Source: a virus. Taken from it: 34,268 nucleotides of DNA. The position numbers and the translations under genes are program-made. The notes under the pieces were generated by a model. The model ran no database searches and was not told the origin of the DNA. It saw only the letters and a program-made list of their open reading frames with translations. Shown piece by piece: positions 13,992 to 33,245 of this stretch; position 1 is the first letter of the stretch; each line of letters starts with the position of its first letter. Where the stretch lies: the IMG/VR virus record IMGVR_UViG_3300012920_010945, positions 1-34,268 of that record. One strand, written 5' to 3'.

Positions 13992-14001
13992 TAACACAAA
14001 A

Positions 14002-14277
14002 ATGAACGAAGAAGAACCCAGTTACAATCCCGAAAACAATATGCAAGATTTTACAATTCCAGCAACCTTCTTGCAGAGATTATATGACTTTACAGGCTCA
14101 TCAGAGAACGACAGGGGTTTTTGCTTAGCCTATGTCAATCAAGGAGGCCAAGTAATGATTATGCAAAAAGCAGAAACGCAAATTATTGATCTAGGACTAA
14201 GAAAAGGTCTTGAAAAATTCCTAATCGACATGGAAGAATCGGAAGGAAGAATGGACATTAACGGCAATGATGAATAA
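14002..14277 (+). CDS. Small acidic protein of unknown function
   Basis: A 91-residue acidic protein without membrane segments. It begins MNEEEPSYNPENN, has a compact middle (IPATFLQRLYDFTGSSEND, then a beta-like stretch GFCLAYVNQGGQVMIMQKAE) and a helical C-terminus with an acidic end. A TATAAT at 13987-13992 lies nine bases before the ATG, but no -35 box is evident. It sits between recombinase/nuclease and helicase, where T4-like phages often encode small replication accessory or single-strand-binding factors; this one is not recognisable. Confidence 0.65.
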   Translation: MNEEEPSYNPENNMQDFTIPATFLQRLYDFTGSSENDRGFCLAYVNQGGQVMIMQKAETQIIDLGLRKGLEKFLIDMEESEGRMDINGNDE

Positions 14278-14282
14278 ATAGT

Positions 14283-14311
14283 TTGACTTAGTAGAATAAT
14301 TATGGTATAGT
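14283..14311 (+). promoter_or_regulatory. Sigma70-type promoter of the helicase operon
   Basis: TTGACT (14283-14288), an exact 17-base spacer and TATAGT (14306-14311). The ATG at 14324 follows after 12 bases, leaving a leader of about five bases with no Shine-Dalgarno. It probably drives helicase through UDP-galactopyranose mutase (14324-20340), since no other gap occurs in that stretch. Confidence 0.7.
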
Positions 14312-14323
14312 CTTATATTAACC

Positions 14324-15850
14324 ATGATTTATTCGCACGAATTAGAACAACATTTATTATCAGGACTCATAAAGCATCAAGAAGCTTTTTTTGAAATATC
14401 AAATCTAATCAACGAAAATGACTTCAGGGCAGATTCATCAGAGGTCAACAAAACTATTTTTAAAATCTTAAAGCAGGCTATAGAGTCAGGTGAAACTGTA
14501 GATGATGTTTTAATTTCTCAAAGAGTAAAAGAGTTAAACATTTCTTTCGATGGAGGCATAAACGTTTTTGACTATCTCAAGTCTTTATCAATGAGAATGG
14601 TATCAAAAGACAGCATACTACAGGTAGCAAAAGATCTAAAGAAGATTTCAATAAGAAATGATATCCTTGACTCAGCAACAGAAGTTGCATCAAAAATGAA
14701 AAAGCTAAAATCGTCTTCCTCTTTTGATGAAATAATAGAAATAGCAGACGGAACATTTAACAAAAACATATGCGGAGTATTCTCTCGACAGAATAATCCT
14801 GAAAACATTTTTGAAGAAATGGAAGACCTCATAGAAGAAAGAGGCAACAACCCTCAGACGGAATTTGGAATGATGGGACCACATGAATCGATTAATAAAA
14901 TCTACGGATCCTTGCTTAGGCCAGGAAATATTACTGTTATAGTTTCTCGGTCAGGGGTAGGAAAAACTACATTTTGCCTAGATTATTGCACCAAAGTTTC
15001 TCTCAAATATAATAATGTGCCAGTGCTGCATTTTGATAACGGAGAAATGAGCAAAGAAGAGTTATTAATGAGGCAGTGCGCTTCTCTAGCAGGAGTGCCC
15101 ATGCATTATCTAGAAACAGGAAACTGGAGAAGGAACGAAGATTTTGTAAAAAAAGTTAGAGCAGTATGGCCTCAAATTAAGAATATGAAACTTTATTATT
15201 ATAACGTTGCGGGGCTTTCCGTAGATCAAATGATCAATATAATGAGAAGATTTTATTACTCAACTGTAGGAAGAGGTAACAAAATGATTTTTAGCTTTGA
15301 TTACATTAAAACAACTTCAGAAAAAAACTCCCAAAATCTATCTCACTGGCAACTAGTTGGAGATATGGTAACAAAATTTAAAAATTTTATTCAAGAAGAA
15401 ATAGTTGTAGACGGTAAACCTGTAATAGGAATGTTAACAAGCGTTCAAAGTAATAGACTAGGAATAACAAACAACAGAAGCTCAGACAGTGTTGTAGACG
15501 ACGAAAGCATTGTATCCCTTTCAGACCAAATCACTCAATTTAGCTCTCACTTATTCTCACTAAGGAAAAAGACAATCGATGAGCTGGCGGAAGACCCAGA
15601 AGGATTCGGAACACATAAACTAATTTGCTTCAAAAATAGATTCCTAGGAGAAAATGCAGAAAGAGCTCTTAACGATGTAGAAATGCCAGATGGATCTAAG
15701 AAAAAGAATTATATTAACTTAGAGGTAGATAACTTTAATATTACAGATAAAGGAGACCTACAAGACATGGTAGACTATCAAAACTTTAACAACGTACAAG
15801 CTCTAGAAGATGGCGGAGATGAAATTGCTGACCTTTTTAACAATACATGA
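14324..15850 (+). CDS. dnaB: Replicative DNA helicase (DnaB / T4 gp41 type)
   Basis: A 508-residue hexameric-helicase protein. Residues 1-100 resemble the DnaB N-terminal helical domain (SHELEQHLLSGLIKHQEAFF; DFRADSSEVNKTIF). The RecA-type ATPase domain has Walker A SRSGVGKTTF (208-217), LHFDNGEMSKEELLMRQ (H1a-like, 235-251) and Walker B IFSFDYIK (322-329), followed by a SVQSNR segment where the family has its sensor. The C-terminal 50 residues are acidic and may bind partners. It unwinds the fork 5' to 3' and works with the primase that follows with a four-base overlap. Confidence 0.92.
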   Translation: MIYSHELEQHLLSGLIKHQEAFFEISNLINENDFRADSSEVNKTIFKILKQAIESGETVDDVLISQRVKELNISFDGGINVFDYLKSLSMRMVSKDSILQVAKDLKKISIRNDILDSATEVASKMKKLKSSSSFDEIIEIADGTFNKNICGVFSRQNNPENIFEEMEDLIEERGNNPQTEFGMMGPHESINKIYGSLLRPGNITVIVSRSGVGKTTFCLDYCTKVSLKYNNVPVLHFDNGEMSKEELLMRQCASLAGVPMHYLETGNWRRNEDFVKKVRAVWPQIKNMKLYYYNVAGLSVDQMINIMRRFYYSTVGRGNKMIFSFDYIKTTSEKNSQNLSHWQLVGDMVTKFKNFIQEEIVVDGKPVIGMLTSVQSNRLGITNNRSSDSVVDDESIVSLSDQITQFSSHLFSLRKKTIDELAEDPEGFGTHKLICFKNRFLGENAERALNDVEMPDGSKKKNYINLEVDNFNITDKGDLQDMVDYQNFNNVQALEDGGDEIADLFNNT

Positions 15851-16884
15851 ACAGTCAGGATATAGAGTCCGTACTCACAGAATTAGGGTATGTCTTAGAT
15901 GACAGAGGAGACTACTGGCAAACCAATGCAGTATACAGAGGAGGGGATAACAGAACTGCAGTCCAAATATATAAAGATACAGGAGTATGGAAAGACTACG
16001 TTCAGGAGACTGGGTTCCTGCCGCTACAAGCTTTAATTGAAAAAAGCTGCGAAGACCTAAGCAAGAAGGACTTAGATAATATATTAAAAAATTTTAACTC
16101 AATAACTCCAGCGACCACACAAGCAAAACAACAAAAATATACCACAGAAGAAATATACAATGAAGAAGAACTAGAAAAACTTTTACCACATTTTCAGTTT
16201 TACAACGAAAGAGGAATTAGTGATGAAGTTTTAAAAAAAACTAAAGGGGGCTTATCAACTCAAGGGCAGATGTACCAGAGGTTTGTTTTTCCAATTTATA
16301 ATGAATACGGGCACATTACTGGATTTGCAGGGAGAGACATGATCAACAAAGAAGGAAGGCCAAAATGGAAACATATAGGAAAAAAAACAAAGTGGGCATA
16401 CCCATATAATCACCCAAATTTTTCAAGAGAGAAATGGCAAAACAAACCTATAATTTTAGTAGAAAGCATAGGTGACTTTTTAGCTATAGAAGAAAATTTA
16501 AAAGAAAATTGCCTTGTAACATTTGGCCTAGATATATCACCTTCGTTAATAAATACCTTAGTAGAAATTAACCCTGAGAAAATATTCATTTCACTAAACA
16601 ATGACGCAACTTCAAAAGAAAACAGAGGATTGCATAGTTCTATTAAAAACTATCTTAAATTACTATCTTTTTTTGATCCAGATAAAATAAAAATTTGCAT
16701 ACCAATAAAGAATGACTTTGGCGAAATGAACAAACAAGACTTTAATGAATGGAAGAGCAAGAAAGAAACAATTAACAACAAAGATCAAAAAGAAGATATT
16801 AAAAAACTAGCAGAAAAACTTACTTCGGAGAATAAAATATCAAAGAACCTTTCTAAAAAAATAAAGTTAATACATGACAGATAA
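15847..16884 (+). CDS. Toprim DNA primase, T4 gp61-like
   Basis: A 345-residue primase. The N-terminal 60 residues (WQTNAVYRGGDNRTAVQIY, GVWKDYVQETG) occupy the place of the zinc domain but contain none of its Cys/His ligands. The toprim core has a hinge strand ILVESIGDFLAIEE (Glu and Asp as in VEGxxD), then ISLNNDATSKENRG, where the usual D-x-D reads N-N-D, and a C-terminal KQDFNEW that fits K-DxN. It makes RNA primers on the lagging strand together with the helicase. Length is close to T4 gp61. It overlaps the next gene by 11 bases. Confidence 0.82.
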   Translation: MNSQDIESVLTELGYVLDDRGDYWQTNAVYRGGDNRTAVQIYKDTGVWKDYVQETGFLPLQALIEKSCEDLSKKDLDNILKNFNSITPATTQAKQQKYTTEEIYNEEELEKLLPHFQFYNERGISDEVLKKTKGGLSTQGQMYQRFVFPIYNEYGHITGFAGRDMINKEGRPKWKHIGKKTKWAYPYNHPNFSREKWQNKPIILVESIGDFLAIEENLKENCLVTFGLDISPSLINTLVEINPEKIFISLNNDATSKENRGLHSSIKNYLKLLSFFDPDKIKICIPIKNDFGEMNKQDFNEWKSKKETINNKDQKEDIKKLAEKLTSENKISKNLSKKIKLIHDR

Positions 16885-17902
16885 AAGAAAACCGCTTTCA
16901 GCAAGTAAAATTAAAACATTTCAGTCATGTTCTTGGTTGTATTGGTGCAAATATCATCTGAAATTACCAGAAGACTCAAATGATGGAGCGAGCAGAGGTA
17001 CAATTTGCCATTTAATCTTTGAATGTCTAGGCAACCCTAGACACAAACACCATTACAATAAAATCATAAAAGGAGGTTCTGCTTGGAAAAGTAAAAGCGT
17101 AAAAAGATTAGTACTATATCATGCAAAAAAATTAGGAGTATACGATTTAGAAAATTTAAACTCAATAAATGACATGATTTTAAACGGCCTCAGGTATGAC
17201 TTCTTTGGTAAAGACGAAGGAAGACCAACAAAAGCTATATCAGAAAAATCTTTTGACATAGATATAGACGAAGAGGACAAAAAATACTCAATTAGAGGAT
17301 TCATTGATAAATTATTTCTATATAAGAAAAAAGGCCTAGCAATAATAAGAGACTTTAAGACAAGCAAGAAAGTTTTCAGCGGAAAAGATAAAACAGACAA
17401 CCTTCAAGATCTGATGTACAGTCTTGCTGTAAAGAAAATTTACCCAGAATTTTTATCAAGACAATCAGAATTTTTATTTTTAAAATTTGACCTTGAAAAA
17501 GATCTTTTAGGCAAAAGTGGAGAAGGGGTTATAAAAATGGATCCTGTATCTGATGACGAACTAGAAGGTTTTGAGTATTTCTTAACAGAAATTCAAAAAC
17601 TGATTGATGATTTCTCTGTAGAAGATGCTCACGAAAACCTAGCAGCAAAACAAGACTACCCAAAAGATGGTAGTTTCAGTGGACCGTTATCATGCGGCTT
17701 CGCAAAACACCCCAACCAACTCAAAAAAGACGGAACTAAAATGTGGCACTGCCCGCACAAGTTTGAATACCAATATTGGACATTAAAGAATAAAAACGGA
17801 GAGACTATAAAAAGTTCTTTAAGAAACGACTTAATTGCTGATGAAAAATCTGGAGAATCAATATCAGAAGAGTATTATAAAGGCTGCCCACACTGGAAAT
17901 AA
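16874..17902 (+). CDS. PD-(D/E)XK exonuclease, RecB/Cas4-like
   Basis: A 342-residue nuclease of the PDDEXK_1 (RecB/Cas4/AddB C-domain) group. Signs are SASKIKTFQSCSWLYWCKYH at the N-terminus, RGTICHLIFECL with the His, GFIDKLFLYKKKGLAIIRDFKTSKK with the catalytic D...D-x-K (about residues 140-165), and QDLMYSLAVKKIYP (the Q-x3-Y motif). The C-terminus has spaced Cys residues (SCGF, HCPHKF, GCPHWK) which, with N-terminal Cys, could bind an iron-sulphur cluster or zinc. It probably processes DNA ends for the UvsX-like recombinase. Its stop shares one base with the next start. Confidence 0.82.
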   Translation: MTDKRKPLSASKIKTFQSCSWLYWCKYHLKLPEDSNDGASRGTICHLIFECLGNPRHKHHYNKIIKGGSAWKSKSVKRLVLYHAKKLGVYDLENLNSINDMILNGLRYDFFGKDEGRPTKAISEKSFDIDIDEEDKKYSIRGFIDKLFLYKKKGLAIIRDFKTSKKVFSGKDKTDNLQDLMYSLAVKKIYPEFLSRQSEFLFLKFDLEKDLLGKSGEGVIKMDPVSDDELEGFEYFLTEIQKLIDDFSVEDAHENLAAKQDYPKDGSFSGPLSCGFAKHPNQLKKDGTKMWHCPHKFEYQYWTLKNKNGETIKSSLRNDLIADEKSGESISEEYYKGCPHWK

Positions 17903-18642
17903 TGATTCAAAAAAAATGTTTTTTCTCTGTTTTAACTAAAAGCTTTATAGAAGGCTTTAAGGTCTTTTCTTCTTCTCTGATTAGACACAATCCATGGATA
18001 AATAAAACCCAGAACGACATGGTTATTGTATCTGTAGATCTTTCAGAGGAAGATAAAAAAGAGTGCGAAAAATATTATAAATATATCAAATGGATAGAGC
18101 CAGAAAAACTCCCATCAAACTTTGATGAAGATAAACTTAAAATAGGAAAATGCGCATTGTATAAACTGCAAGCATTCTCTTTATATGAATATGATTTAGT
18201 AATCTCTATTGACGTGGGAGATATGGTGGTAATAAAACCTATTCCTGAAATTTTTGCATTCAATACTTCCATAGGAATGGTGCAAGGATGGACAAGAGAT
18301 CACGGGTGGCACGATACTAAAAAATTAGGAGGAACATTCAATGGCGGACTAGTAATACTGAATAGAGAACTAAGAAACCCATATATATATGAAAAGTTAA
18401 TAAACTCTAGATGCACCCCTTATTTTGATCAACAAATTTTAAACGACCAATTCAGGGGAAAAATATCTAAACTACCAATTTCTTTAAATTTCTCAAAAAG
18501 ATTAATAGAATGTCAAGACGTTGATATTAACGATGCTCAAATAATACATTATGTAGGAGAAAAACCGTGGCAAGACTACGAAAAAAAAGAATTATATAAA
18601 AACATAGAAAAATTCTGGATAAATGAAAAGCAAAACTTATAA
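17902..18642 (+). CDS. GT8-like glycosyltransferase
   Basis: A 246-residue GT-A transferase. Features of family GT8 (glycogenin/LgtC type): LYKLQAFSLYEYDLVISIDVGDMVV around residues 87-111, where the metal-binding acids are D104 and D107; GGTFNGGLVILNRELR, the GxFNxGxxxxN segment; YFDQQILND (the DQ motif); and IIHYVGEKPW near the end (the H-x2-G-x2-KPW motif). It would transfer Gal or Glc with retention. It is co-transcribed with the replisome, not with the main glycan operon, and begins a second sugar module. Confidence 0.85.
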   Translation: MIQKKCFFSVLTKSFIEGFKVFSSSLIRHNPWINKTQNDMVIVSVDLSEEDKKECEKYYKYIKWIEPEKLPSNFDEDKLKIGKCALYKLQAFSLYEYDLVISIDVGDMVVIKPIPEIFAFNTSIGMVQGWTRDHGWHDTKKLGGTFNGGLVILNRELRNPYIYEKLINSRCTPYFDQQILNDQFRGKISKLPISLNFSKRLIECQDVDINDAQIIHYVGEKPWQDYEKKELYKNIEKFWINEKQNL

Positions 18643-19339
18643 AAATATTTTTTTAGTAACAACCCAAAATGGCAGAGAAGAAATCGTTTATGATTTTATG
18701 CAGTCAAAAGCTATGCAGCAAGCTATCAAACAGGAAGATTTAATACTCTTATGCTTTGCAGATGCAGAAAAAACCAAAACAAAAAGAACTGACTACGGAC
18801 ATAACGTAAGAGAACTTTTTTTAGATTGTCCAGAAAAATATGCCCAACTAAGCCTCAAGACTCTTAAATCTATACAATATTGCTGTAAAAACTTTAAGTT
18901 TGAAAGATTACATAAATGCGATGACAATAAAATGATTAACGAAGAAGTTTATGATATAAATTATAACAAATACGATTTTCAAGGCTGCTGTAAACACCAA
19001 ATTCCTCGACAGCATGATAGGTATATAAATAAAAACAAACACAAATGCATAAAACTTCCAACACATTTTTTAAAACTCGGCCTAGATCAGTGCGAGAAAA
19101 GAACTTTTGATAGGTGGTCAAAAAAAAGAGGAATATGGGTAGACCTATGGCATTATGACAACGAAGTATGGTATAGCAATTGGAAACCCTACTCTATTTC
19201 TTATAATTTTGCACAAATTTTATCAAAAGCAGATAAGTATGAATTTTTATATAGAAAATATTTAGCAGGATGCGAAGACCACATGATAGGAAAAGTGTAC
19301 AAAGATTTACAACTTTATTTTAATTTAACAGCAGAATGA
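18623..19339 (+). CDS. GT31-like glycosyltransferase
   Basis: A 238-residue protein with the order of motifs of family GT31 (beta-1,3-galactosyl- and GlcNAc-transferases of eukaryotes): NVRELFLDCPEKYAQLSLKTL (near D-x-Y-x-NLT-x-KTL, about residues 54-74), RLHKCDDNKM (95-104, in the place of the DDD metal motif), KPYSISYNFAQILS (in place of YPxYxxGxGYVLS) and AGCEDHMIGKVY (the EDVYVG-type motif). It lacks the membrane anchor of Golgi enzymes. Similarity is by motif only. It overlaps both neighbours. Confidence 0.55.
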   Translation: MKSKTYKNIFLVTTQNGREEIVYDFMQSKAMQQAIKQEDLILLCFADAEKTKTKRTDYGHNVRELFLDCPEKYAQLSLKTLKSIQYCCKNFKFERLHKCDDNKMINEEVYDINYNKYDFQGCCKHQIPRQHDRYINKNKHKCIKLPTHFLKLGLDQCEKRTFDRWSKKRGIWVDLWHYDNEVWYSNWKPYSISYNFAQILSKADKYEFLYRKYLAGCEDHMIGKVYKDLQLYFNLTAE

Positions 19340-20340
19340 AAATCAACATTATAGGATGTGGACTCTCAGGAGTAACAGCAGCAATCAAGCTTAAAGAAAA
19401 AGGGCATGATGTAGAAATATTTGAAACGCGAGATCATATTGCAGGAAATTGCTACGATCATAAAGTAGACGGAGTAACAGTTCATGAATACGGGTCACAC
19501 ATATTCCACACTAGCAACGAAAAGGTATGGGAATTTCTTAATAGATATACAAAATTTAACGACTATAGTCATAAAGTTAGAGCAAACACAAAAGAAGGGA
19601 GGCTATCAATTCCTTTTAGCAAGAAAACTGCAGAACAGTTAGGAAGAGATTTAGACCCAGAAGAGATTAAGGATCTTCTTTTTAAAGAATATTCAGAACG
19701 TCACTGGGGCATACCTTGGGAGGAGTTGCCAAAATCAATTTCTGGACGGGTGCCCAACAAGAGAGATAACTATGATGATAGATATTTTACCGATAAATAT
19801 CAAGGCATACCAGAACAAGGTTATACAAAAATGTTTGAAGCGATGCTCGAAGGAATTAAAGTAAACCTAGGGGTAGATCCAGACGCATGGAAAAATTTAA
19901 AAGGCGACTTAATGATATGGACAGGAAGAATATCGCAGTACTTTGATATGTGCTACGGACACCTTCCCTATAGATCATTAAGGTTTGAGCATACCAAAAC
20001 AAAAAGAGATCCAAATGAATTTTCTTACGAGCTAGGTGCAGTCATCAATGAGTGTAACACTCAACCCTTCAATAGAACTATGGATAGTGCTGCATATTTA
20101 GATGAACGCCCAGAATATACTATACTAACAAGAGACTACCCAGAAGAGTACGTTAAAGGTAAAAATGAACCTATTTATCCAAAAACATTTGGAGAAGGTC
20201 CAGAACTTTACCAAAAATATAGAGAATTATCAAAAACAAAAAAAGACGTCATATTTCTCGGCAGGTTAGCGACTTACAAATACCTTGATATGCACCAAGC
20301 AGTGGGAGCAGCCTTAAGAGTTATTAACAAAATAAATTAA
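19336..20340 (+). CDS. glf: UDP-galactopyranose mutase
   Basis: A 334-residue FAD enzyme that interconverts UDP-galactopyranose and UDP-galactofuranose. The N-terminus has the dinucleotide fold IIGCGLSGVTAA (about 4-15) with an FET(R) acidic strand end and the flavin segment HIAGNCYDH. YGSHIFHTSNEKVW (about 53-66) and the C-terminal RLATYKYLDMHQAVGAAL are signature stretches of Glf. Slightly shorter than the bacterial norm (about 370). It provides galactofuranose donors for viral glycans, perhaps used by the preceding two transferases. It overlaps the previous gene by four bases. Confidence 0.93.
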   Translation: MKINIIGCGLSGVTAAIKLKEKGHDVEIFETRDHIAGNCYDHKVDGVTVHEYGSHIFHTSNEKVWEFLNRYTKFNDYSHKVRANTKEGRLSIPFSKKTAEQLGRDLDPEEIKDLLFKEYSERHWGIPWEELPKSISGRVPNKRDNYDDRYFTDKYQGIPEQGYTKMFEAMLEGIKVNLGVDPDAWKNLKGDLMIWTGRISQYFDMCYGHLPYRSLRFEHTKTKRDPNEFSYELGAVINECNTQPFNRTMDSAAYLDERPEYTILTRDYPEEYVKGKNEPIYPKTFGEGPELYQKYRELSKTKKDVIFLGRLATYKYLDMHQAVGAALRVINKIN

Positions 20341-20343
20341 GTC

Positions 20344-20372
20344 TTGCAGTACACTCAAATCGATGCTATAAT
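20344..20372 (+). promoter_or_regulatory. Sigma70-type promoter of nrdA
   Basis: TTGCAG (20344-20349), an exact 17-base spacer and a perfect TATAAT (20367-20372). Unlike the other promoters it leaves a leader of roughly 55 bases before the ATG at 20435. The -10 box is inside an inverted repeat (20365-20386). Confidence 0.75.
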
Positions 20373-20386
20373 AACTAAATTATAGC
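20365..20386. repeat. Inverted repeat over the nrdA -10 box (candidate operator)
   Basis: GCTATAAT (20365-20372) and ATTATAGC (20379-20386) are perfect reverse complements separated by AACTAA. The left arm contains the whole -10 box, and the right arm covers the expected transcription start. A dimeric repressor binding here would block the polymerase. As RNA the right arm could pair only if transcription started upstream, so a DNA operator is more likely. It does not look like an NrdR box. Confidence 0.5.
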
Positions 20387-20434
20387 AATTCTTAAATATT
20401 TTAAAACTACAAAAACAGCGGTGTATCCCAAAGC

Positions 20435-22870
20435 ATGGAAGACATAAAAGTCAAAAAAAGAAACGGAAGATTAGAAGATTTTAACGTCCAAAAAATTAAC
20501 GCTAGTGCAGAGCGAGCCTGCGAAGGTATAGGAGAAGTTTCAGCAAGCGAAATAGTGCTCGACGCACAACTTCAACTATTCAATAAAATTACGACGCAAG
20601 AGATTGACGGAGCTCTTATATTTTCAGCAAGACAGAAGATAGAAAAAGAGCCGAACTATTCATATGCTGCAGCAAGATTATTATTAAACAACCTATACAA
20701 GGAAGTATTCAGAGAAGGGGTTGACTCTGATATGTTCAGCCTTCAGTATAAAAAAGCATTTGTCCAGAATATAAAAAAGCTCGTCAAGTCAGAAAAGATC
20801 AACCCAGAACTTCTTAAGTTTGATCTTGCCTACTTAGCAGAGAACCTTAATTTAGATAGAGATAAAAAATTTAAATACCTAGGAGCTCAGATACTTTACG
20901 ATAGATACCTAATTAGAGAAGACAATAAAGTAATGGAGTCACCACAAGCCTTCTGGATGAGGGTTGCAATGGGTTTATCAATCAACGAAAAAGATAAAAA
21001 TAAAAAGGCTGTAGAGTTCTATAATCTAATTAGCGAGATGAAGTATACCCCTTCAACACCAACATTATTTAATAGCGGCACAACTCACTCACAATTAAGC
21101 TCTTGTTACTTAAATACTTTTGATGACAGTATAGACGGAATCTTTGATGGAGCATGGCAAGAAGCAAGAAAGTCAAAATATGCTGGAGGTTTAGGTCTAG
21201 ACGTAACTCCTTTTAGGTCAACAGGTTCCTACATTAAAGGAACAAATGGAATTTCAAGCGGTCTAGTCCCTTGGTTAAAAATTTATAATGATCTTCTCGT
21301 GGCAGTAAACCAAGGAGGTAAGCGTCCAGGAGCTGGATGTGCTTATCTTGAACCATGGCACTTAGATTATGAAGAATTCCTTAACCTAAGAAAAAACACG
21401 GGAGACGACAGGTTAAGGTGTCACGATATGAATACGGCATCATGGATACCAGATGAATTCATGAGGAGAGTTCAAAGCAATGAAGACTGGTACTTCTTTG
21501 ACCCAAGAGACGCAGACCTTCATGATCGCTTTGGTATAGAATTTGACATAAAATATAATGAGCTAATCGAGATGGCAGAAAACGGAGAGGTCAAAAATTG
21601 GAGAAAAACTTCAGCAAAAGACCTTTGGAAAAAAATGCTAAAAGTTCTTTTTGAGACGTCCCACCCTTGGAATACATTCAAAGATCCTTGTAATATTAGA
21701 TATACAAATCAGCATGAAGGAACGGTTCATAGCAGTAATCTATGCACAGAAATTACCCTACATACAAAGGCCTCTAAATACAACAAAGGAGAAAAAACTG
21801 AAGTAGGAGAAACGGCTGTATGTAATCTTGGATCAGTAAATCTGCTAAATCATTTTGACGAAGAATCTAACTCAGTAAACTTTAAGGAGCTAGAAAAAAC
21901 AATACATACAGCATTAAGAATACTCGATAATGTTATAGACCTAAACTTCTACCCAACAAAAGAAGCCGAAAATTCAAATTTAAAAAATAGACCAGTAGGT
22001 CTAGGCATGATGGCTCTGCACGATGTTTTACATAAAATGAACATCAAAATTGACAGCAAAGAAGCTGTTGAGTTTAGCGACAAACTATTTGAGTTTTACT
22101 CAATGCATGCAATTTACTCAAGCTCGATACTTGCAACAGAAAGAGGTAAATATGAAACTTACAAAGGTTCTTTATGGAGTAAAAACATATTCCCAATTGA
22201 TTCTTACAATAATCTAATGCTATACAGAGATAAACAAAAAAATTCTAAAACAGGACAAGGGCAAACACTAGAAGAGTGGGGTAGAGTTAGACAGCATGTA
22301 GCTGAATTTGGTATGCGAAACTCAAATGTAATGGCAATTGCGCCAACAGCAACCATAGGATACATAAACGGCGTCGAGCAAAGCATCGAGCCAAATTTTT
22401 CCGTTCTTTTTGTATATGAAAATAAAAGCGGAAACTTTTTTATAACCAACGAACATTTTGTTAAAGATATGAAAGAAAGAGGTTTATGGAATGTTGAAAT
22501 AGCTAACCTAGTAAAACAGGCAGACGGAGATCTTTCTCTTCTTAACGGCTCAATACCAGAAGATCTAAAAGAAAAATATAAAACCGCTTTTGACAGAGAC
22601 ATGTTTACGCTAATCGATGCAAATAGTGCGAGGCAAAAATGGATGGATCAATCCTTGAGCTTCAATTTGTACAACAAATCAACTTCATTAAAATATCTTA
22701 ATGACATCTACATGCACTGCTGGGAACAAGGCTTAAAAACAACATATTATTTAAGAAATAGAGCAGCAACAAAAGTTGAAAAATCAACCTCAGAAGAAAC
22801 TTCAGAACAACCTTCAGCATGCAGTATTGAAGCAATGAAGAATGGAGAGGTGTGTGAAAGCTGCCAGTAA
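20435..22870 (+). CDS. nrdA: Class I ribonucleotide reductase, large subunit
   Basis: An 811-residue alpha subunit that reduces ribonucleoside diphosphates. Residues 1-90 form an ATP-cone (VKKRNGRLEDFNVQKI), so it keeps allosteric activity control. Catalytic residues: C224 in SSCYLNTFD and C463 in AVCNLGSVNL (redox pair), N435, C437 and E439 in NLCTE, Y771-Y772 in TTYYLRNRAAT for radical transfer, and the C-terminal CESC (807-810) that accepts electrons from a redoxin. All key residues are present. It partners with the NrdB at 24224, although two genes lie between. It has its own promoter and a candidate operator. Confidence 0.96.
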   Translation: MEDIKVKKRNGRLEDFNVQKINASAERACEGIGEVSASEIVLDAQLQLFNKITTQEIDGALIFSARQKIEKEPNYSYAAARLLLNNLYKEVFREGVDSDMFSLQYKKAFVQNIKKLVKSEKINPELLKFDLAYLAENLNLDRDKKFKYLGAQILYDRYLIREDNKVMESPQAFWMRVAMGLSINEKDKNKKAVEFYNLISEMKYTPSTPTLFNSGTTHSQLSSCYLNTFDDSIDGIFDGAWQEARKSKYAGGLGLDVTPFRSTGSYIKGTNGISSGLVPWLKIYNDLLVAVNQGGKRPGAGCAYLEPWHLDYEEFLNLRKNTGDDRLRCHDMNTASWIPDEFMRRVQSNEDWYFFDPRDADLHDRFGIEFDIKYNELIEMAENGEVKNWRKTSAKDLWKKMLKVLFETSHPWNTFKDPCNIRYTNQHEGTVHSSNLCTEITLHTKASKYNKGEKTEVGETAVCNLGSVNLLNHFDEESNSVNFKELEKTIHTALRILDNVIDLNFYPTKEAENSNLKNRPVGLGMMALHDVLHKMNIKIDSKEAVEFSDKLFEFYSMHAIYSSSILATERGKYETYKGSLWSKNIFPIDSYNNLMLYRDKQKNSKTGQGQTLEEWGRVRQHVAEFGMRNSNVMAIAPTATIGYINGVEQSIEPNFSVLFVYENKSGNFFITNEHFVKDMKERGLWNVEIANLVKQADGDLSLLNGSIPEDLKEKYKTAFDRDMFTLIDANSARQKWMDQSLSFNLYNKSTSLKYLNDIYMHCWEQGLKTTYYLRNRAATKVEKSTSEETSEQPSACSIEAMKNGEVCESCQ

Positions 22871-23129
22871 TACAATCTTAAATAGATTCAAAGAAGGAAT
22901 AATAAGAGCATCTCTTATAAGAAAGGAGATGATCCTAATAAGGTTTGACCCAGAAGAGTATTCTGACATTAAAAAAATTAATCAACTAAAAGATTTTTAT
23001 ATCAAAACAATAAAAGATTTAATTTATAATGGCAAAGAGTATATAAGTCTTTCTGTCGACGAAGAAGAAATGATCAGAGTTGCAATAGACTTAGATAAAT
23101 ATGAATCTATACTAAGAAGAATAAATTAG
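22842..23129 (+). CDS. Small protein of unknown function
   Basis: A 95-residue protein with no recognisable family. It is alpha/beta in look: NTILNRFKEGIIRASLIRKE, MILIRFDPEEY, a helix IKKINQLKDFYIKTIKDLI, a strand EYISLSVDEEEMIRVAIDL and a C-terminal helix. The start used is the ATG at 22842, 29 bases inside nrdA; GTG at 22854 or ATG at 22929 are alternatives. It is probably co-transcribed with nrdA and ends before the -10-like element of the next gene. Confidence 0.6.
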   Translation: MERCVKAASNTILNRFKEGIIRASLIRKEMILIRFDPEEYSDIKKINQLKDFYIKTIKDLIYNGKEYISLSVDEEEMIRVAIDLDKYESILRRIN

Positions 23130-23130
23130 T

Positions 23131-23137
23131 GTATAAT
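23131..23137 (+). promoter_or_regulatory. GTATAAT -10 element before the LamG gene
   Basis: A perfect TATAAT (23132-23137) preceded by GTG, just past the upstream stop and eight bases before the ATG at 23146. The -35 position is weak (ATACTA). It fits the short-leader promoter pattern of the window. Confidence 0.45.
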
Positions 23138-23145
23138 ATATTGCG

Positions 23146-24174
23146 ATGAACTTACAGGAATTAAACAATCTCATTCACTCTGCAACAAAAGAAGAACTGC
23201 AGACAAACCTAAGCGCATGGAAATCTGAAATTAATACAATACTTTTAACAGGAACAGAAGCCGACGAACATTATTTTATTAATCATACAGGCAGAGAATT
23301 ATTTAGAAAATTATACAATTTTGATTTAGAGTCAGAGATCAAAGATGAATACTATTCAGGATTTAGACCTCAAAGAAAAAGCAAATTAAATGCTTTAGAC
23401 ATCACAATAAGGGCGCACCTTGACGCAACAGTAAGCAACTCTATCTCAGAGTCTTCTGGAAGCGTTAGCGAATGGAGAGATATTAGCGGAAACAATTTTC
23501 ATGCATCAACCTCAACGGCTAGCAACATGCCAACCACGAATTCTAGAACCCTTAACGGATTAAATGTTATAGACTTCGATGGAACAGACAATTGTCTTAC
23601 ATTTTCAAGTACAGATGTAGTTTCGCTAGGCTATACAACTGCATTTATCGTATACAAATCAGACGCAGCAAACAACGACTACATTCTTGGCTCAGGAAAC
23701 AAAGAGGGCAGCAGATCTAGATTTTACCTGCGGTCAGACTCATCTATCATAGGTTCATGGGACGGCGGACAAAATGACAAAATTAATTTTTTAAGCAAAA
23801 CCGACACAAACGAAAGAATTTCTATGCAAGAAACTGTACTAGGGACAACAGAAGGAAACCTTGGAACATTTTTATATAGAGATGGAGTTTTCCAAAATTC
23901 CAAGCCAGACGTGGCATATATTCACGAGATAAGTTCAACGCAACCAAACAATGAAGACATGGTAAAGCTACAGCTAGGTTGCAGGGAAGGCAACGTAAAT
24001 AAGCACGAAGGATATATTGCAGAAGTTTTATTCCTTAATAACGGAGGAGAACAGCTTGCTCAAGATACTCGCGAAAATATAGAAGCCTACTTAGCTCACA
24101 AGTGGGGGTTAACATCAAAGTTAGATGGCGCACACCCATATAAGAACAGCTTATATAAAACTTTTAATTCTTAA
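23146..24174 (+). CDS. LamG/concanavalin-like jelly-roll protein, probable virion protein
   Basis: A 342-residue protein. Residues 1-85 are helical and charged. From about 86 there is a beta-sandwich of the LamG/ConA type: HLDATVSNSI, VSEWRDISGNNFHAS, LNGLNVIDFDGTDNCLTF, TAFIVYKSD, RSRFYLRSDS and FLYRDGVFQN. It ends in IAEVLFLNN and IEAYLAHKWGLTSKLDGAHP, a C-terminal signature common in glycan-binding proteins of aquatic bacteria and their phages. There is no signal peptide, so it is more likely a tail-fibre or capsid-decoration protein that binds surface glycans than a secreted host protein. Oddly placed between the two reductase genes. Confidence 0.75.
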   Translation: MNLQELNNLIHSATKEELQTNLSAWKSEINTILLTGTEADEHYFINHTGRELFRKLYNFDLESEIKDEYYSGFRPQRKSKLNALDITIRAHLDATVSNSISESSGSVSEWRDISGNNFHASTSTASNMPTTNSRTLNGLNVIDFDGTDNCLTFSSTDVVSLGYTTAFIVYKSDAANNDYILGSGNKEGSRSRFYLRSDSSIIGSWDGGQNDKINFLSKTDTNERISMQETVLGTTEGNLGTFLYRDGVFQNSKPDVAYIHEISSTQPNNEDMVKLQLGCREGNVNKHEGYIAEVLFLNNGGEQLAQDTRENIEAYLAHKWGLTSKLDGAHPYKNSLYKTFNS

Positions 24175-24182
24175 TTTTTTTC

Positions 24183-24211
24183 TTGCAAATGGTCTTAATG
24201 TGTGATAATAT
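24183..24211 (+). promoter_or_regulatory. Sigma70-type promoter of nrdB
   Basis: TTGCAA (24183-24188), a 17-base spacer containing TGTG and TAATAT (24206-24211), twelve bases before the ATG at 24224. GATAAT two bases upstream is an alternative -10 with a 15-base spacer. The leader would be about five bases. Confidence 0.6.
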
Positions 24212-24223
24212 CGTTATATAAAT

Positions 24224-25237
24224 ATGAGCGATAAAACAGGAGAACTATTAACAAAAAATATAGCTGGAGTAAATAGAATTTTACCCCATAAGCACAAGTA
24301 TGCTTGGGATTTATTTATTAAAAGTTGCGCAAATAATTGGATGCCAACAGAAATCTCAATGCAAAACGACATTAAACAATGGAAAAACAATGAAATCACG
24401 GAAGACGAAAAACTGCTCGTCAAAAGATGCCTCGGATTCTTTGCTGGAAGCGAGTCTTTGGTTGGGAATAACCTTCTGCTTTCTGCTTTCAGATATATTA
24501 CGGACGCTGAATGCCGTCAGTACATTCTTCGTCAGGCTTTTGAAGAGAGTCTTCACAATCTCACGGTAGTATATATATGCGATAGCCTCGATCTAGACAT
24601 AAACGAAGTATTTACTGCATATGAGACAATCCCAAGCATAAAAGCAAAAGACGACTTCTTAATGGAGATCACTAATGATATTAGTAGACAAGATTTCGAC
24701 CCCCACACAAAGGAAGGCAAGCAAGAAATCCTTAGAAACTTTTTAACTTATTGGATTGTATGTGAAGGAACTTTTTTCTTCAGTGGATTTGCAATGTTGC
24801 TTGCACTAGGAAGGCAAAATAAACTTCAAGGAGTGTCAGACCAAATTAAATATACATTAAGAGATGAAAGCTCTCATATTGCATTCGGAACTTACTTGAT
24901 CAACACTCTTATAGAGCAAAACCCTTCAATTTGGACAAAAAAAATACAAGAAGAGTTTGTTGAGCACATAAAAAAAGCCGTAGACCTAGAAATTGCATAC
25001 GCAAGAGACGTTCTTCCAACTGGAATTTTAGGACTTAATGCGGACATGTTTATAGAATACATGCATTACATAGGGAATAGAAGGCTAGAAGCAATTGGGC
25101 TAGATTATCGCTTCCCCAGCGACACAAACCCTTTTCCTTGGCTAGGAGAAGTGGTAGACGTACAAGCAATGGGTAATTTTTTCGAAAGAAGGGTTAGAGA
25201 ATATCAACAAAGCGGAACACTTGAAGACGACTTTTAA
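24224..25237 (+). CDS. nrdB: Ribonucleotide reductase small subunit lacking the radical tyrosine (class Ic-like)
   Basis: A 337-residue ferritin-like beta subunit that makes the radical used by NrdA. Metal ligands by motif: E77 (GSESLVGNN), E108 and H111 (EESLH), E181 (CEGTFFF), E215 and H218 (DESSH). In standard class Ia proteins the first ligand is Asp and Tyr stands four residues after the first His; here these are Glu77 and Val115 (HNLTVVYIC). Glu plus a non-Tyr residue is the pattern of class Ic subunits such as that of Chlamydia trachomatis, which use a Mn/Fe centre in place of a tyrosyl radical. The C-terminus ends in EDDF, presumably docking to NrdA. Confidence 0.94.
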   Translation: MSDKTGELLTKNIAGVNRILPHKHKYAWDLFIKSCANNWMPTEISMQNDIKQWKNNEITEDEKLLVKRCLGFFAGSESLVGNNLLLSAFRYITDAECRQYILRQAFEESLHNLTVVYICDSLDLDINEVFTAYETIPSIKAKDDFLMEITNDISRQDFDPHTKEGKQEILRNFLTYWIVCEGTFFFSGFAMLLALGRQNKLQGVSDQIKYTLRDESSHIAFGTYLINTLIEQNPSIWTKKIQEEFVEHIKKAVDLEIAYARDVLPTGILGLNADMFIEYMHYIGNRRLEAIGLDYRFPSDTNPFPWLGEVVDVQAMGNFFERRVREYQQSGTLEDDF

Positions 25238-25655
25238 AAAAGCAGCAGGCGTAGTCCTCTATTCCAAAGGATCAGTTCTTTTATGCAAAAGAATAAAAAA
25301 ACATAAAGGAAAAGACGTGCCATATGGGGGTTATTGGTGTCCTTTTGCAGGTATTATAGAAAAAGGAGAGGACGCAAGAGACGCAGCAGTTAGAGAATTA
25401 AAAGAAGAATCGGGAGTATCTGCACATAAAGACGACTTAAATTATTTAGATAGTTTTTCTAATCCAGATAGGTTTTTTCAACTTTATATTCTTGAGTTAG
25501 AGCATTTTCCAAAAATTACATTAGACTTTGAACACACAGACATGGGTTATTTCGTAGTAGAACACCTAGAAAGTCTACCTTCAGATTATAAATTAGACGA
25601 AGATTTAATAAAATCTCTACAGAAATACGAAAAAAGTATTTCCAAAAAAAAATAG
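25221..25655 (+). CDS. Nudix hydrolase
   Basis: A 144-residue Nudix protein. The Nudix box is complete: G-x5-E-x7-RELKEESGV, starting at GIIEKGED (about residue 44). The N-terminal AAGVVLYSKGSVLLCKR is the usual first strand of the fold. It hydrolyses a nucleoside diphosphate derivative; with the reductase next door, clearing damaged or unwanted nucleotides (MutT- or pyrophosphatase-like) is plausible, and a nucleotide-sugar substrate is the alternative. The start is a TTG at 25221, overlapping the nrdB end by 17 bases; no other start precedes the fold. Confidence 0.88.
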   Translation: MKTTFKKAAGVVLYSKGSVLLCKRIKKHKGKDVPYGGYWCPFAGIIEKGEDARDAAVRELKEESGVSAHKDDLNYLDSFSNPDRFFQLYILELEHFPKITLDFEHTDMGYFVVEHLESLPSDYKLDEDLIKSLQKYEKSISKKK

Positions 25656-26678: not shown

Positions 26679-26681
26679 AAT

Positions 26682-28996: not shown

Positions 28997-29025
28997 TTGA
29001 CAAATAGGTTAAATAAGTGTAAAAT
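28997..29025 (+). promoter_or_regulatory. Sigma70-type promoter of the DUF1549/DUF1553 gene
   Basis: A consensus TTGACA (28997-29002), an exact 17-base spacer ending GTG and TAAAAT (29020-29025), eight bases before the ATG at 29034. The mRNA should start at or one base before the ATG. The match in sequence and geometry to the promoters of the replication genes ties this gene to the virus's own expression programme. Confidence 0.75.
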
Positions 29026-29033
29026 TAAAACAA

Positions 29034-31088
29034 ATGAAATATATACTACTGCTATTACTATCTTCTTTTTGCGTATATGGATCAAGTAAGCTTTATTTTA
29101 ATGATGGAAAAAGCTTGGAGGCAGAAATCGTAGAAGCAAACGAGACTCATGTCACAATCAAAAGAGCAAAAGACTTACAGCTTTTCAGGTTTAAACTAAC
29201 TCTTTTAACAAAAGATACGCAAAAACAAGTAGAACTTTACCATTCGAGAGACAGGTACAGTTCTATTCCTTCCGTAAAAACTCCTATAGATCAAAGAACA
29301 TTAAACTCTTATGTAAACTATATAGACACATTAATAGAAAACAATTTACGAAACAAAAGACTTCAAAAAACAAGAGAAGCTAATGATAATGTATACGTAA
29401 GAAGACTATACCTCACAGTTATAGGCAGAATTCCAACGCAAGCAGAGCTTTTAGAATTTTCAAACGACAGAAGTTCAGATAAAAAAGATAAGTTAATACA
29501 AAAACTTTTAAATTCTCAAGGCTATATCAACCATCAGATGAATTGGTGGAGCGACATGCTAAGAATAAAAGACAGAGTCAATGGAACAAATATTAATGTT
29601 GGAGCAGTTTACAGAAAATGGCTAAGAGAGTCCTTGCAACAAAAAAAGCCTTATGATCAAATAGTTAGAGAGCTTGTAGGAAGCACAGGAAGACTTTTTG
29701 AAACTAACGAAGGGGCAGCAGTAAGCTACTATCTAAGAGACAGAGGAATGCAGGCAGACAATTTATCTCATACCGTAAGAATATTTCTAGGCACTCAGCT
29801 GCAATGCGCAATGTGCCATAATCACCCCTTTGATAGGTGGACTCAAAAGGAATTCTATCAAATGACTGCATTTACAGAAGGCATAGGCAATGTTAGAATT
29901 AATGACGCTAATAGAAAAATCGGTCAACTTAGCAGGGAGATAAATAACGACGGAGACGAGAGATCAGGAACCTTTAACAACTGGAGAAATCAAGTTAGAG
30001 ACTCATTAATTTTTGGACTCGATAATGAGGGAGAAGGTAAGATGAAATTGCCTATAGAATACGAAGAAAGCGACGCAAGTCCAGGAGATATAGTTATGGC
30101 TAAGGCAATCTTTACCCCCAAACCAATACTTGACCATGAAAAAGGAGATACAAAAAGTCGCACAGTTTTTGCAGAATGGATAACAAGCAAAGACAACCCA
30201 CGCTTTACAACCATGATTGCAAACAGAATATGGAAACATGTTTTTGGCGCAGGGCTTATAGAACCCATTGACACAATGATGGATGACACATTAGCAAGCA
30301 ACCAAGAACTAATGAAATACTTAGAAAGGCTAATGGTAAGCGTTAACTATGACTTAAGAGAATATAAAAGAATACTTCTTAATACAAAATTATTTCAAAG
30401 ACAAAGCAAAAAAGAGGACTATAAAAGCCTAGAAGAGTACGCTTTTGAAGGACCAATACTCAGAAGAATGACTGGAGAACAGTTGTGGGACTCCCTAGTA
30501 ACGCTAGTATACAACGATATAGATGAGCCAAATAGACTCTATCTTCACAACCAACCAGATTACTCAGCTATATTCAATAGATATAATGAAAAAAATGCAA
30601 CAGATATTTATCAAGACTTTAAAGCTCTTGCAGACAAATACCCAAAAGAAAGAAACTTCTTAAAAATGGTTATGCAAGAAGAAGGATCAACTCAAGAAGT
30701 TAAAAAAGTAAAAGATAATCGTTTAGTGAGAAGCAGCTATCTTCAATATCCTGCTCCAGGAGGACACTTGATTAGACAGTTTGGAGGCAGCGACAAAGAA
30801 CAAATAGACAACAGCAATTTTGAAGCCAACACCCCTCAAGTATTAAATCTACTTAATGGTTTTGTAGAATCAAACATCCTAAATAAGAAAGATGCAGATT
30901 TTATTCAGCAGATGACAGAAGAAAAAGTAAAACAAAAGAGAATAGAAAGCGTTTTCTTATCAATTTTAGGCAGAAAGCCTACAGGAATTGAGTCACAAGC
31001 ACTCAAGAATATTATAGACAAAGAAGATGGCTTTAAGCACGTCTCATGGATATTATTAAATAGTCACGAATTTATCTTCATACAATAA
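29034..31088 (+). CDS. Exported DUF1549/DUF1553 protein with CxxCH motif
   Basis: A 684-residue protein of the PSCyt2/PSD1 group that is abundant in Planctomycetota and Verrucomicrobiota. Residues 1-16 are a Sec signal peptide. Residues 18-70 (FNDGKSLEAEIVEANETHVT) look like the SLA1-homology (SHD1) domain of those phyla. DUF1549 runs from about 90 to 285 (YVRRLYLTVIGRIPT; LGTQLQCAMCHNHPFDRW with C258-x2-C261-H262, a c-type haem-like motif). DUF1553 runs from about 350 to the end (NRIWKHVFGAGL; RRMTGEQLWDSL; LLNSHEFIFIQ). The usual N-terminal PSCyt1 domain is absent. Function of the family is unsettled. Its usual operon partner, DUF1501, is one gene away. Confidence 0.9.
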   Translation: MKYILLLLLSSFCVYGSSKLYFNDGKSLEAEIVEANETHVTIKRAKDLQLFRFKLTLLTKDTQKQVELYHSRDRYSSIPSVKTPIDQRTLNSYVNYIDTLIENNLRNKRLQKTREANDNVYVRRLYLTVIGRIPTQAELLEFSNDRSSDKKDKLIQKLLNSQGYINHQMNWWSDMLRIKDRVNGTNINVGAVYRKWLRESLQQKKPYDQIVRELVGSTGRLFETNEGAAVSYYLRDRGMQADNLSHTVRIFLGTQLQCAMCHNHPFDRWTQKEFYQMTAFTEGIGNVRINDANRKIGQLSREINNDGDERSGTFNNWRNQVRDSLIFGLDNEGEGKMKLPIEYEESDASPGDIVMAKAIFTPKPILDHEKGDTKSRTVFAEWITSKDNPRFTTMIANRIWKHVFGAGLIEPIDTMMDDTLASNQELMKYLERLMVSVNYDLREYKRILLNTKLFQRQSKKEDYKSLEEYAFEGPILRRMTGEQLWDSLVTLVYNDIDEPNRLYLHNQPDYSAIFNRYNEKNATDIYQDFKALADKYPKERNFLKMVMQEEGSTQEVKKVKDNRLVRSSYLQYPAPGGHLIRQFGGSDKEQIDNSNFEANTPQVLNLLNGFVESNILNKKDADFIQQMTEEKVKQKRIESVFLSILGRKPTGIESQALKNIIDKEDGFKHVSWILLNSHEFIFIQ

Positions 31089-31114
31089 CTTTTACAAGAA
31101 AAAATCAACTATAG

Positions 31115-31124
31115 TGTGTATCAT
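31115..31124 (+). promoter_or_regulatory. TGTGTATCAT -10-like element
   Basis: TATCAT (31119-31124) with GTG directly upstream, five bases before the ATG at 31130. There is no clear -35 box at 17 bases (TTTACA at 31091 is 22 bases away). It belongs to the GTGTAnnnT series in this window. Confidence 0.35.
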
Positions 31125-31129
31125 ATAAC

Positions 31130-31975
31130 ATGAAAGAACTAGACTTTTCAGATCAAATTAAATATATGGAGTGCTATGCCTGCTCTTTAGAAGGAACCGA
31201 AGAGGAGATATCTGAAGAGTCTTGGGCATCAGAAAAAAACAAAGGCAAGAAACTCAATAAGCCATTCAGAACATCTGGTGGGCCGAAAAAGTTTTCAGTC
31301 TATGTTAAAAACGATAAAGGTAACGTTGTCAAGGTTAACTTCGGAGATCCAAATATGGAAATCAAAAGGGATGACCCTAATAGAAGAAAAAACTTTAGAG
31401 CAAGGCATAACTGCGATAGTCCAGGACCTAAGTGGAAAGCAAAGTATTGGAGCTGCAGAATGTGGAGCGGCAGAAGTGTCAATAAAATTACAAAAGGCGG
31501 AGATATGTCAGAACAAGACATCTTAACTTTTCTAGATGAGTCAGAAGCAGAACTTACAGAGCAGCAAAAAAAATTACCGCCAGCTTTACAAAAAAAGATA
31601 CTAAATAAAAAATCTAAGGATAAAAAAGGCTCAAATAAAGAAAAGTCGACAGACGAAAAGTCAGAAGCCAAGCAAGGCTTATGGGACAACATCAGAAAAA
31701 AGAAGAAAAGAATGGGTAAAAACTATCGTCCCGCACAACCTGGAGACAAAGATCGCCCAGACGCAAAGTCTTGGAAGAAGGCCCAAAAGAAAAAAGAAGA
31801 CTCTAAAGCTGCAGAAGAAGAATTTAAGCCACATAAAATGTATGACAAAAGTGGAAAAGCATACATGGCAAAAACAAAAGAAGATCATTTAAAAATGAAA
31901 AAAATGGGATACACACATGAAGATCCCAAGATGAAATCCGAAAGCGGATATAAAAAGAAAAAGAAAGGATACTAA
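31130..31975 (+). CDS. Lys-rich phage protein with ARHNC...YWSC motif
   Basis: A 281-residue, highly charged protein. Around residues 86-112 it carries RARHNCDSPGPKWKAKYWSC, a Cys-containing motif that I know from structural-module proteins of marine T4-like phages, where it is possibly metal-binding. The rest is low complexity: acidic near 20-35 and 130-150, then Lys-rich (KKILNKKSKDKKGSNKEKS; KAQKKKEDSKAAEEEFK), with an ending that repeats Lys/Met/Tyr-Gly units. It has no signal peptide, so it is cytoplasmic or packaged, perhaps DNA-binding. It lies between the two exported DUF genes, linking that pair to the viral genome. Confidence 0.7.
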   Translation: MKELDFSDQIKYMECYACSLEGTEEEISEESWASEKNKGKKLNKPFRTSGGPKKFSVYVKNDKGNVVKVNFGDPNMEIKRDDPNRRKNFRARHNCDSPGPKWKAKYWSCRMWSGRSVNKITKGGDMSEQDILTFLDESEAELTEQQKKLPPALQKKILNKKSKDKKGSNKEKSTDEKSEAKQGLWDNIRKKKKRMGKNYRPAQPGDKDRPDAKSWKKAQKKKEDSKAAEEEFKPHKMYDKSGKAYMAKTKEDHLKMKKMGYTHEDPKMKSESGYKKKKKGY

Positions 31976-31976
31976 A

Positions 31977-33245
31977 ATGAATGAGTTAAGCAGAAGAAAC
32001 TTTATGGCAGGAGTCGCTAAGAGCTGCCTAGGGGTAACAGCAATTGTCCACGGTTCGGAACTTTTTGCAATCAGCCCAACCAAGCGTCCACCAACAGCAA
32101 AAAGCGTAATCTTTTTGTACATGAATGGAGGAATGACACACCTAGACACCTTTGATCCTAAACCAGAAAACAAAGATGTTATGGGTGAGACAACCGCTAT
32201 AAATACTTCTGCAGATGGAATTCAACTTGGCCATTGGCTGCCAAAAACAGCCCAGCAGATGCACAGTGCATCGTTGATTCGCTCACTTAATACAAACCAA
32301 GGAGCACACGAACAAGCTAGATACTTATTGCATACAAGCTATCAAAAAAGAGGAACAATTATTCATCCAACTCTTGGTAGCTGGATAACAAAGCTCAGAG
32401 GGCCAATGAATAAAAGCCTTCCAGCTAACGTAAAAATCAACGGAGGTAGCGACGTCCTTGGAGCTGGATACTTCGAAAGCAAATATGGACCTCTACCACT
32501 AGGTAATCCTAATGCAGGAATACAAAATGTAAAAAAAGCAGGATATGTAGATCAAGACTTTTACAACGAAAGGCTTTCTATTTCTCAAAAATTTAACTCA
32601 AGCTTCATGAATAGCTTTCCTCAAAAACAAGTCAGGGCGTATACAGATTTGTACGATGATGCGGTCAAGCTTATGAGAAGTAAAGACCTCGAGTCCTTTG
32701 ATCTATCAAAAGAACCTCAAGAACTTAGAGATCAATATGGAGATAACAACTTCGGACAAGGATGCCTACTGGCACGGAGGCTCGTAGAAAACAACGTTCG
32801 ATTTGTTGAAGTTGTATATGGAGGCTGGGACATGCATAACGATGTTTTTGGCAACATGGAAGAAAAAGGTACAGTTCTAGACAACGGACTATCTACCCTG
32901 CTCATGGATCTAGAAAGAAGAGGATTATTAAAAGAAACTATGGTTGTAGTAGCCAGTGAATTCGGAAGAACTCCAGAAGTTAAAGCTGGCAGAGTCGGAA
33001 GAGACCACCACCCATCCTCATTCAGCGCTCTTCTTGCAGGAGGAGGAATTAAAGAAGGTTATGTTCACGGAAAGTCAGACAAAAGAGCTCACTACGTTGA
33101 AGAAAACGGAGTGGGTATGGACGACCTAAATGCTACAATTGCTTGGGCAATGGGCATAGACATTCATAAAATTACTTATTCTCCAAGCGGAAGACCTTTT
33201 AAGATCGCTAGGGACGGAGAGCCAATCATAGATATACTAAGTTAA
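31977..33245 (+). CDS. Tat-exported DUF1501 protein
   Basis: A 422-residue protein of the DUF1501 family (alkaline-phosphatase/sulfatase-like superfamily). The N-terminus LSRRNFMAGVAKSCLG (4-19) is a twin-arginine signal. Family features are FLYMNGGMTHLDTFDPKP (about 44-61), GGWDMHND (about 277-284), VASEFGRTPEV and GRDHHPSSFSALLAGGG, which together hold candidate metal-binding Asp and His residues. A Shine-Dalgarno AAGGA (31965-31969) is seven bases before the ATG, one of only two clear ones. In bacteria the gene is typically adjacent to a DUF1549/DUF1553 gene, as here apart from one insertion. It acts in the periplasm; the substrate is unknown. Confidence 0.9.
   Translation: MNELSRRNFMAGVAKSCLGVTAIVHGSELFAISPTKRPPTAKSVIFLYMNGGMTHLDTFDPKPENKDVMGETTAINTSADGIQLGHWLPKTAQQMHSASLIRSLNTNQGAHEQARYLLHTSYQKRGTIIHPTLGSWITKLRGPMNKSLPANVKINGGSDVLGAGYFESKYGPLPLGNPNAGIQNVKKAGYVDQDFYNERLSISQKFNSSFMNSFPQKQVRAYTDLYDDAVKLMRSKDLESFDLSKEPQELRDQYGDNNFGQGCLLARRLVENNVRFVEVVYGGWDMHNDVFGNMEEKGTVLDNGLSTLLMDLERRGLLKETMVVVASEFGRTPEVKAGRVGRDHHPSSFSALLAGGGIKEGYVHGKSDKRAHYVEENGVGMDDLNATIAWAMGIDIHKITYSPSGRPFKIARDGEPIIDILS

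Follow-up and report, generated by a model that had tools for sequence, protein, structure and literature searches.

PSCyt2/PSD1 and DUF1501, a putatively exported and host-derived gene pair in uncultured phages

PSCyt2/PSD1 (DUF1549/DUF1553) and DUF1501 genes form a strongly conserved pair, with predicted export signals, in the genomes of a large family of uncultured phages; until now the pair was known from bacteria only, Planctomycetota and Verrucomicrobiota among them. Both protein families are already known, although to our knowledge a biochemical function has been assigned to neither; what is new is the pair as host-derived auxiliary genes in phages. Trees, flanking genes, GC3 and dN/dS point to a cellular origin and stable residence in viruses. 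With less than even confidence, we favour reading the pair as a functional viral module derived from PVC bacteria that would consist of an exported heme protein and an exported metalloenzyme, with modification of envelope or extracellular glycans as its likeliest role.

The sequence analysed, hereafter the window, is the whole of IMG/VR virus record IMGVR_UViG_3300012920_010945 (positions 1 to 34,268; 34,268 bases), a genome fragment of which the relevant features are collected in Table 1. The first-pass annotation had recognised both families, a Sec leader on one protein and a Tat leader on the other, as well as CxxCH, SEFGRTP and GRDHHP motifs, all of which are recovered by Pfam matches, a hydrophobic leader, SRRNF and the motif positions listed, export itself being predicted.

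Table 1. Features of the locus in the window, with the clade C loci that have DUF1501 and no PSCyt2 upstream
Feature	Position	Strand	Basis or remark
Viral replication and nucleotide block	12487..25655	+	upstream of pair, plus-strand genes
Promoter-like TTGACA-17-TAAAAT	28997..29025	+	8 nt before PSCyt2/PSD1 ATG
PSCyt2/PSD1 protein, 684 aa	29034..31088	+	Pfam; AF2 model
CAMCH motif for predicted heme c attachment, residues 258-262	29805..29819	+	alignment
Intervening viral protein, phrog_7595/DUF5754-like	31130..31975	+	RARHNC..YWSC; phrog_7595 match 3.4e-11
DUF1501 protein, 422 aa, alkaline-phosphatase/sulfatase fold	31977..33245	+	Pfam; Foldseek; hhalign
Twin arginine of Tat signal, SRRNF at N-terminus	31992..31997	+	RR motif
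His111, in place of sulfatase formylglycine cysteine	32307..32309	+	aligned to Cys of CSPAR
D285-x-H287, putative metal ligands	32829..32837	+	invariant in 174/174
SEFGRTP, residues 327-333	32955..32975	+	E328 aligned to D of sulfatase DNG motif
GRDHHP, residues 341-346	32997..33014	+	H344 in 174/174, D343 in 99/99 viral
Clade C loci without PSCyt2 upstream	L102-L104, L106, L108-L111, L119, L124, L126, L128, L129, L131, L133		

The replication and nucleotide block encodes a UvsX-like recombinase, DnaB helicase, primase, a PD-(D/E)XK exonuclease, a NUDIX protein and both the large and the small subunit of a class I, aerobic ribonucleotide reductase (RNR). The phage-type protein with an ARHNC...YWSC motif that had been noted between the two genes is indeed present; among relatives its gene lies between the pair, after the pair, elsewhere or is absent, and the protein is no invariable part of the pair. 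A T4-like Gp23 major capsid protein was matched in 1 of 29 records and was not found in the window, a fragment. Just 5' of the pair, positions 26655-28985 encode a 776-aa protein without any family match; relatives often have in its place a TSP3-repeat protein that bears a leader (e.g. L003:5449-7359). Positions 370-10558 hold a glycan cluster with a GT2 glycosyltransferase, two cytidylyltransferases, a GT29 sialyltransferase-like protein, NeuB, a GDP-mannose dehydratase-like protein, an FkbM methyltransferase and an HpcH/HpaI aldolase, which looks like viral nonulosonic acid synthesis. A UDP-galactopyranose mutase is encoded at 19336-20340.

Scanning viral contigs with the window DUF1501 returned 28 loci. 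Among IMG/VR contigs a mixed-alignment scan gave 508 stretches related to DUF1501, the top 80 being retained, and 112 stretches are related to PSCyt2/PSD1, counts that may take in some mislabelled bacterial contigs. The proposed search for the same cluster elsewhere was fruitful: among 95 loci examined, the window included, 74 have a PSCyt2/PSD1 gene that precedes DUF1501 in the same orientation, with a gap of at most 150 nt in 57; DUF1501 lies at the locus edge in six, and fifteen others have no PSCyt2 upstream. Exactly one PSCyt2 was found in 53 of 73 whole records, no PSCyt2-bearing record having more than this single copy, and five PVC bacterial genomes contain 37-148 DUF1501 matches each. 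A second DUF1501 copy adjoins the pair in L148, L151, L152, L154, L100 and L143 and forms a viral clade of its own, except for the L143 copy, which falls elsewhere in the tree. The pair of a 205-kb relative (G004, L189-L199), the genes of which were named by clustering with window proteins and reading of sequences, lies on one strand and is flanked by nudix, exonuclease, primase and DnaB genes and, at its opposite end, by genes for a DnaE-type polymerase and Clp. This genome also has an open frame of 5,462 aa near 20 kb and further giant frames of 3,418, 2,343 and 1,832 aa. In other genomes the pair has been relocated, often still near RNR, dUTPase-like, primase or DnaE genes.

Assembly artefacts or mislabelled bacterial contigs might be suspected, as IMG/VR contigs are uncultivated and some short ones lack hallmark genes, but such an origin is scarcely credible given that the pair has viral flanks in many independent assemblies, that a terminase was found on 38 of the 73 whole records searched, and that GC3 is viral and the clades virus-only. 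On terminase, flanks, GC3 and virus-only clades a mislabelled bacterial contig or chimera was ruled out, and the join of host and viral DNA near 29 kb that had been considered for the window need not be invoked, since in relatives the pair is flanked by viral genes at either end.

The first-pass annotation had further proposed that PSCyt2/PSD1 is driven by a TTGACA-17-TAAAAT promoter of the kind serving viral replication genes. The site exists and ranks best of 42 sigma-70-like matches in positions 20001-34268, where 39.5 in total are expected by chance, but its -35 box is not common to most viral genes, and a consensus TTGACA promoter before all viral pairs was rejected as not general. Its -10 part falls in AGTGTAAAAT, a viral AGTGTAWAAT-like element, and it is this element alone that recurs, in clades A and C. 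As WGTGTAW (AGTGTAAAAT in the window) it is 10-14 fold enriched within the 40 nt that precede start codons of clade A and C genomes, and no such enrichment was seen in clades B or D. The element precedes the PSCyt2/PSD1 and phrog_7595 genes in the window and DUF1501 in the 205-kb relative, and since it stands before genes of the pair, viral transcription of the pair is likely. It possibly represents a viral promoter class of its own.

The DUF1501 tree (86 rows) contains viral-only groups A+C (20 rows, support 99, the window inside), D (13 rows) and B, plus the group of second copies, and its starred branches require no fewer than four changes between cells and viruses. The A+C, D and B groups return in the PSCyt2/PSD1 tree, with three changes of which two are forced, and this equality of groups in both trees fits joint inheritance of the two genes. 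The nearest cellular DUF1501 proteins, mostly of Verrucomicrobiota, are about 50% identical to that of the window, and those nearest to clade B about 55%. The pair was in all likelihood captured from PVC bacteria several independent times. It has the GC3 of its present genomes, with medians of 0.26-0.27 for viral pair genes versus 0.70-0.72 for cellular ones, and with 0.29 and 0.33 for the window pair versus 0.28-0.33 for other viral genes. At a synonymous divergence of about 1 dN/dS ratios are rough, the low amino-acid change being plain nonetheless: six close viral pairs gave 0.014-0.078 for DUF1501 and 0.042-0.098 for PSCyt2/PSD1, and the window compared with its nearest relative gave 0.014 for DUF1501, 0.015 for nrdB and 0.027 for nrdA. 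These values indicate strong purifying selection on both genes, with DUF1501 constrained like viral nrdB. The trees that the annotation called for thus place the genes in virus-only clades and not inside a host genome, and its suggestion of a viral function is strongly supported by viral flanks on both sides, conservation of the pair in dozens of contigs, virus-only clades and purifying selection.

With tblastn, neither DUF1501 (queries from clades A, B and D) nor the window PSCyt2/PSD1 found a relative in isolated phages, and because DnaB is only about 22-25% identical to those of isolate phages, no cultured relative suggests a host. The hosts would presumably be PVC bacteria, so that the pair marks out a large group of uncultivated phages that probably infect them.

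PSCyt2/PSD1 consists of an N-terminal hydrophobic Sec-like leader, an SH3-like (SHD1-like) domain, PSCyt2 (PF07583, E 1.2e-43, 150 bits versus a curated cut-off of 29.8) and PSD1 (PF07587, E 9.8e-33, 114 bits versus 28.5). C258, A259, C261 and H262 are invariant in an alignment of 36 viral and cellular rows and CxxCH is kept in 71 of 71 viral proteins, through which PSCyt2/PSD1 would bind heme c. Its AF2 model (pLDDT 85) has no significant fold match in the PDB, small SH3/SHD1-like and phycobilisome-linker-like resemblances only, that to SHD1 2hbp concerning just the small domain; a sequence search for solved homologues found none. Clade B proteins carry an extra PSCyt1, giving a PSCyt1-PSCyt2-PSD1 architecture, and in many clade B phages a 4Fe-4S ferredoxin gene lies directly 3' of DUF1501 (L020:11200-11583 and relatives). 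PSD1 of clade C contains an insert, CPIKPGR...FCCESC (L105:3685-5979, L117:3228-5567), with a weak TRASH/YHS metal-binding likeness (E 0.005-0.04).

DUF1501 matches its family over the full length (PF07394, E 1.6e-109, 367 bits, profile positions 1-389 of 390), and the twin arginine is present in 96 of 98 full-length viral proteins, which suggests Tat export for DUF1501 as the leader of PSCyt2/PSD1 suggests Sec export. Foldseek relates its model (pLDDT 80, pTM 0.81) to sulfatases, LtaS and alkaline phosphatases (E down to 2.6e-07, probability 1.00, TM about 0.4); 201 PDB matches have E <= 0.001, and among the 50 PDB matches listed all are sulfatases or sulfamidases, LtaS/LtaP or alkaline phosphatases. 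A profile comparison by hhalign with four sulfatases from PVC loci (E 2.6e-05, probability 74.8) puts GAHEQARYLLHTS, from residue 109 of DUF1501, opposite sulfatase QSCSPARASVMTG. Fold match and profile alignment together place DUF1501 in the alkaline phosphatase superfamily. His111, D285, H287, F329, G330, R331 and H344 are invariant in 174 DUF1501 proteins, His111 in 99 of 99 viral and 75 of 75 cellular ones. The Cys/Ser nucleophile of the sulfatase C-x-P-S/A-R motif is missing, and since an invariant His111 replaces the formylglycine cysteine, DUF1501 is no ordinary, formylglycine-type sulfatase and plain sulfatase activity is unlikely. His111 may be either nucleophile or metal ligand.

The most likely product of the pair is an exported module of heme protein and metalloenzyme that works in the host periplasm. 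During infection the phage would produce PSCyt2/PSD1, exported by Sec and acquiring heme c at CxxCH by host-dependent maturation, together with DUF1501, an alkaline-phosphatase/sulfatase superfamily member exported by Tat. Both would act jointly in the periplasm or at the surface of the host, which would operate dozens of such pairs there as paralogues. The chemistry might concern a phosphoryl or sulfuryl ester, with His standing unusually where the nucleophile is expected and the redox partner helping. Envelope or extracellular glycan as substrate is our leading guess, a link by neighbourhood only, because cellular PSCyt genes often lie beside sulfatases and carry carbohydrate-binding modules (PMC5615132) and because the window has a nonulosonate/glycosyltransferase cluster. 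Of the roles offered by the first-pass annotation, envelope remodelling agrees with fold and export signals alike, and feeding on polysaccharide may be no more than a conjecture. One may guess that the phage benefits by blocking superinfection, by progeny not being trapped or by a sustained nutrient supply.

Little less probable than glycan modification is a metabolic or redox role. The pair would then keep a host periplasmic pathway running as host expression collapses (electron transfer, or release of phosphate, sulfate or sugar from oligosaccharides) and leave the envelope unaltered. Its location among replication and nucleotide-metabolism genes (RNR, dUTPase-like, DnaE), the ferredoxin of clade B, the weak TRASH/YHS-like insert of clade C and the redox role suggested for PSCyt2/PSD1 (PMC2754498) agree with this, but no transporter or catabolic gene was recognised adjoining the pair, and the partner is lost in part of clade C. 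There, fifteen loci lack PSCyt2 upstream, and those of their contigs that were searched whole (up to 206 kb) contain none; therefore the redox partner is dispensable in these phages, which tells against the favoured reading too, and its loss suggests that DUF1501 is the essential half or uses a host partner. Neighbours of DUF1501 at these loci are e.g. dUTPase-like, nrdB, DnaE/Clp or exonuclease genes.

The tens of paralogous DUF1501 genes in bacteria of PVC type, together with the conserved residues and export signals kept in viral proteins, could also indicate a decoy, in which the viral pair would vie with the host's own paralogues for partners or sites of assembly and exclude superinfection by replacing host surface complexes that serve as receptors or in defence. 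We consider this unlikely, since the invariant putative active site and very strong selection argue for catalysis over mimicry and a receptor role is known for neither protein. Less probable still is a tail- or capsid-associated enzyme for adsorption or entry: a TSP3-repeat protein adjoins the pair in some clade A genomes, but the proteins have Sec- and Tat-type leaders and no fusion to structural domains, and the pair has genes of replication and nucleotide metabolism, not tail genes, as its neighbours, which weakens the adsorption role initially suggested.

The pair suggests that the phages carrying it re-engineer the host envelope or its chemistry during infection, and that host surface or periplasmic chemistry is a repeated viral target. 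Selection as strong as on RNR implies that the pair pays off within the span of a single infection. PVC genomes hold both families by the dozen and viruses usually keep one pair, which makes the viral copies compact versions for biochemistry. A bolder proposal, which we regard as rather doubtful, is a near-core module of wide distribution, taken up several times independently, in which PVC phages depend on an exported pair of cytochrome and AP-superfamily protein that reprograms envelope or periplasm through a His-based active site with chemistry undescribed in phages or cells.

As the first-pass annotation supposed, the pair seems undescribed as a viral function: no paper on DUF1501 or PSCyt in viruses was found in the literature covered, with most subscription journals and preprints outside it. 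One DUF1501 protein has been deposited from an uncultured Caudovirales phage contig (A0A6J5M742, UniProt/BFVD); it bears the domain name only, no description of a pair or function having been found with it, and is 14% identical in the fold alignment. DUF1800-DUF1501 operon pairs of Proteobacteria, transferred together with chitin synthase genes (PMC5122149), likewise combine a DUF1501 with twin-arginine leader and a partner, but are bacterial and have DUF1800 where the phages have PSCyt2/PSD1. With the alkaline phosphatase/sulfatase superfamily DUF1501 shares the fold and the spacing of the H111..T120 and E328-F-G motifs, and differs in His for formylglycine Cys/Ser and in a sequence identity of just 8-14%. 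Closest are the pairs of Planctomycetota and Verrucomicrobiota, which have the same families, gene order, CxxCH, twin-arginine and SEFGRTP/GRDH motifs, and the PSCyt1-PSCyt2-PSD1 architecture also seen in viral clade B, whereas the viral pairs lie in phage genomes, usually singly instead of by tens, have low GC3, form clades of their own at no more than about 50-55% identity and, in clades A and C, have a viral promoter element.
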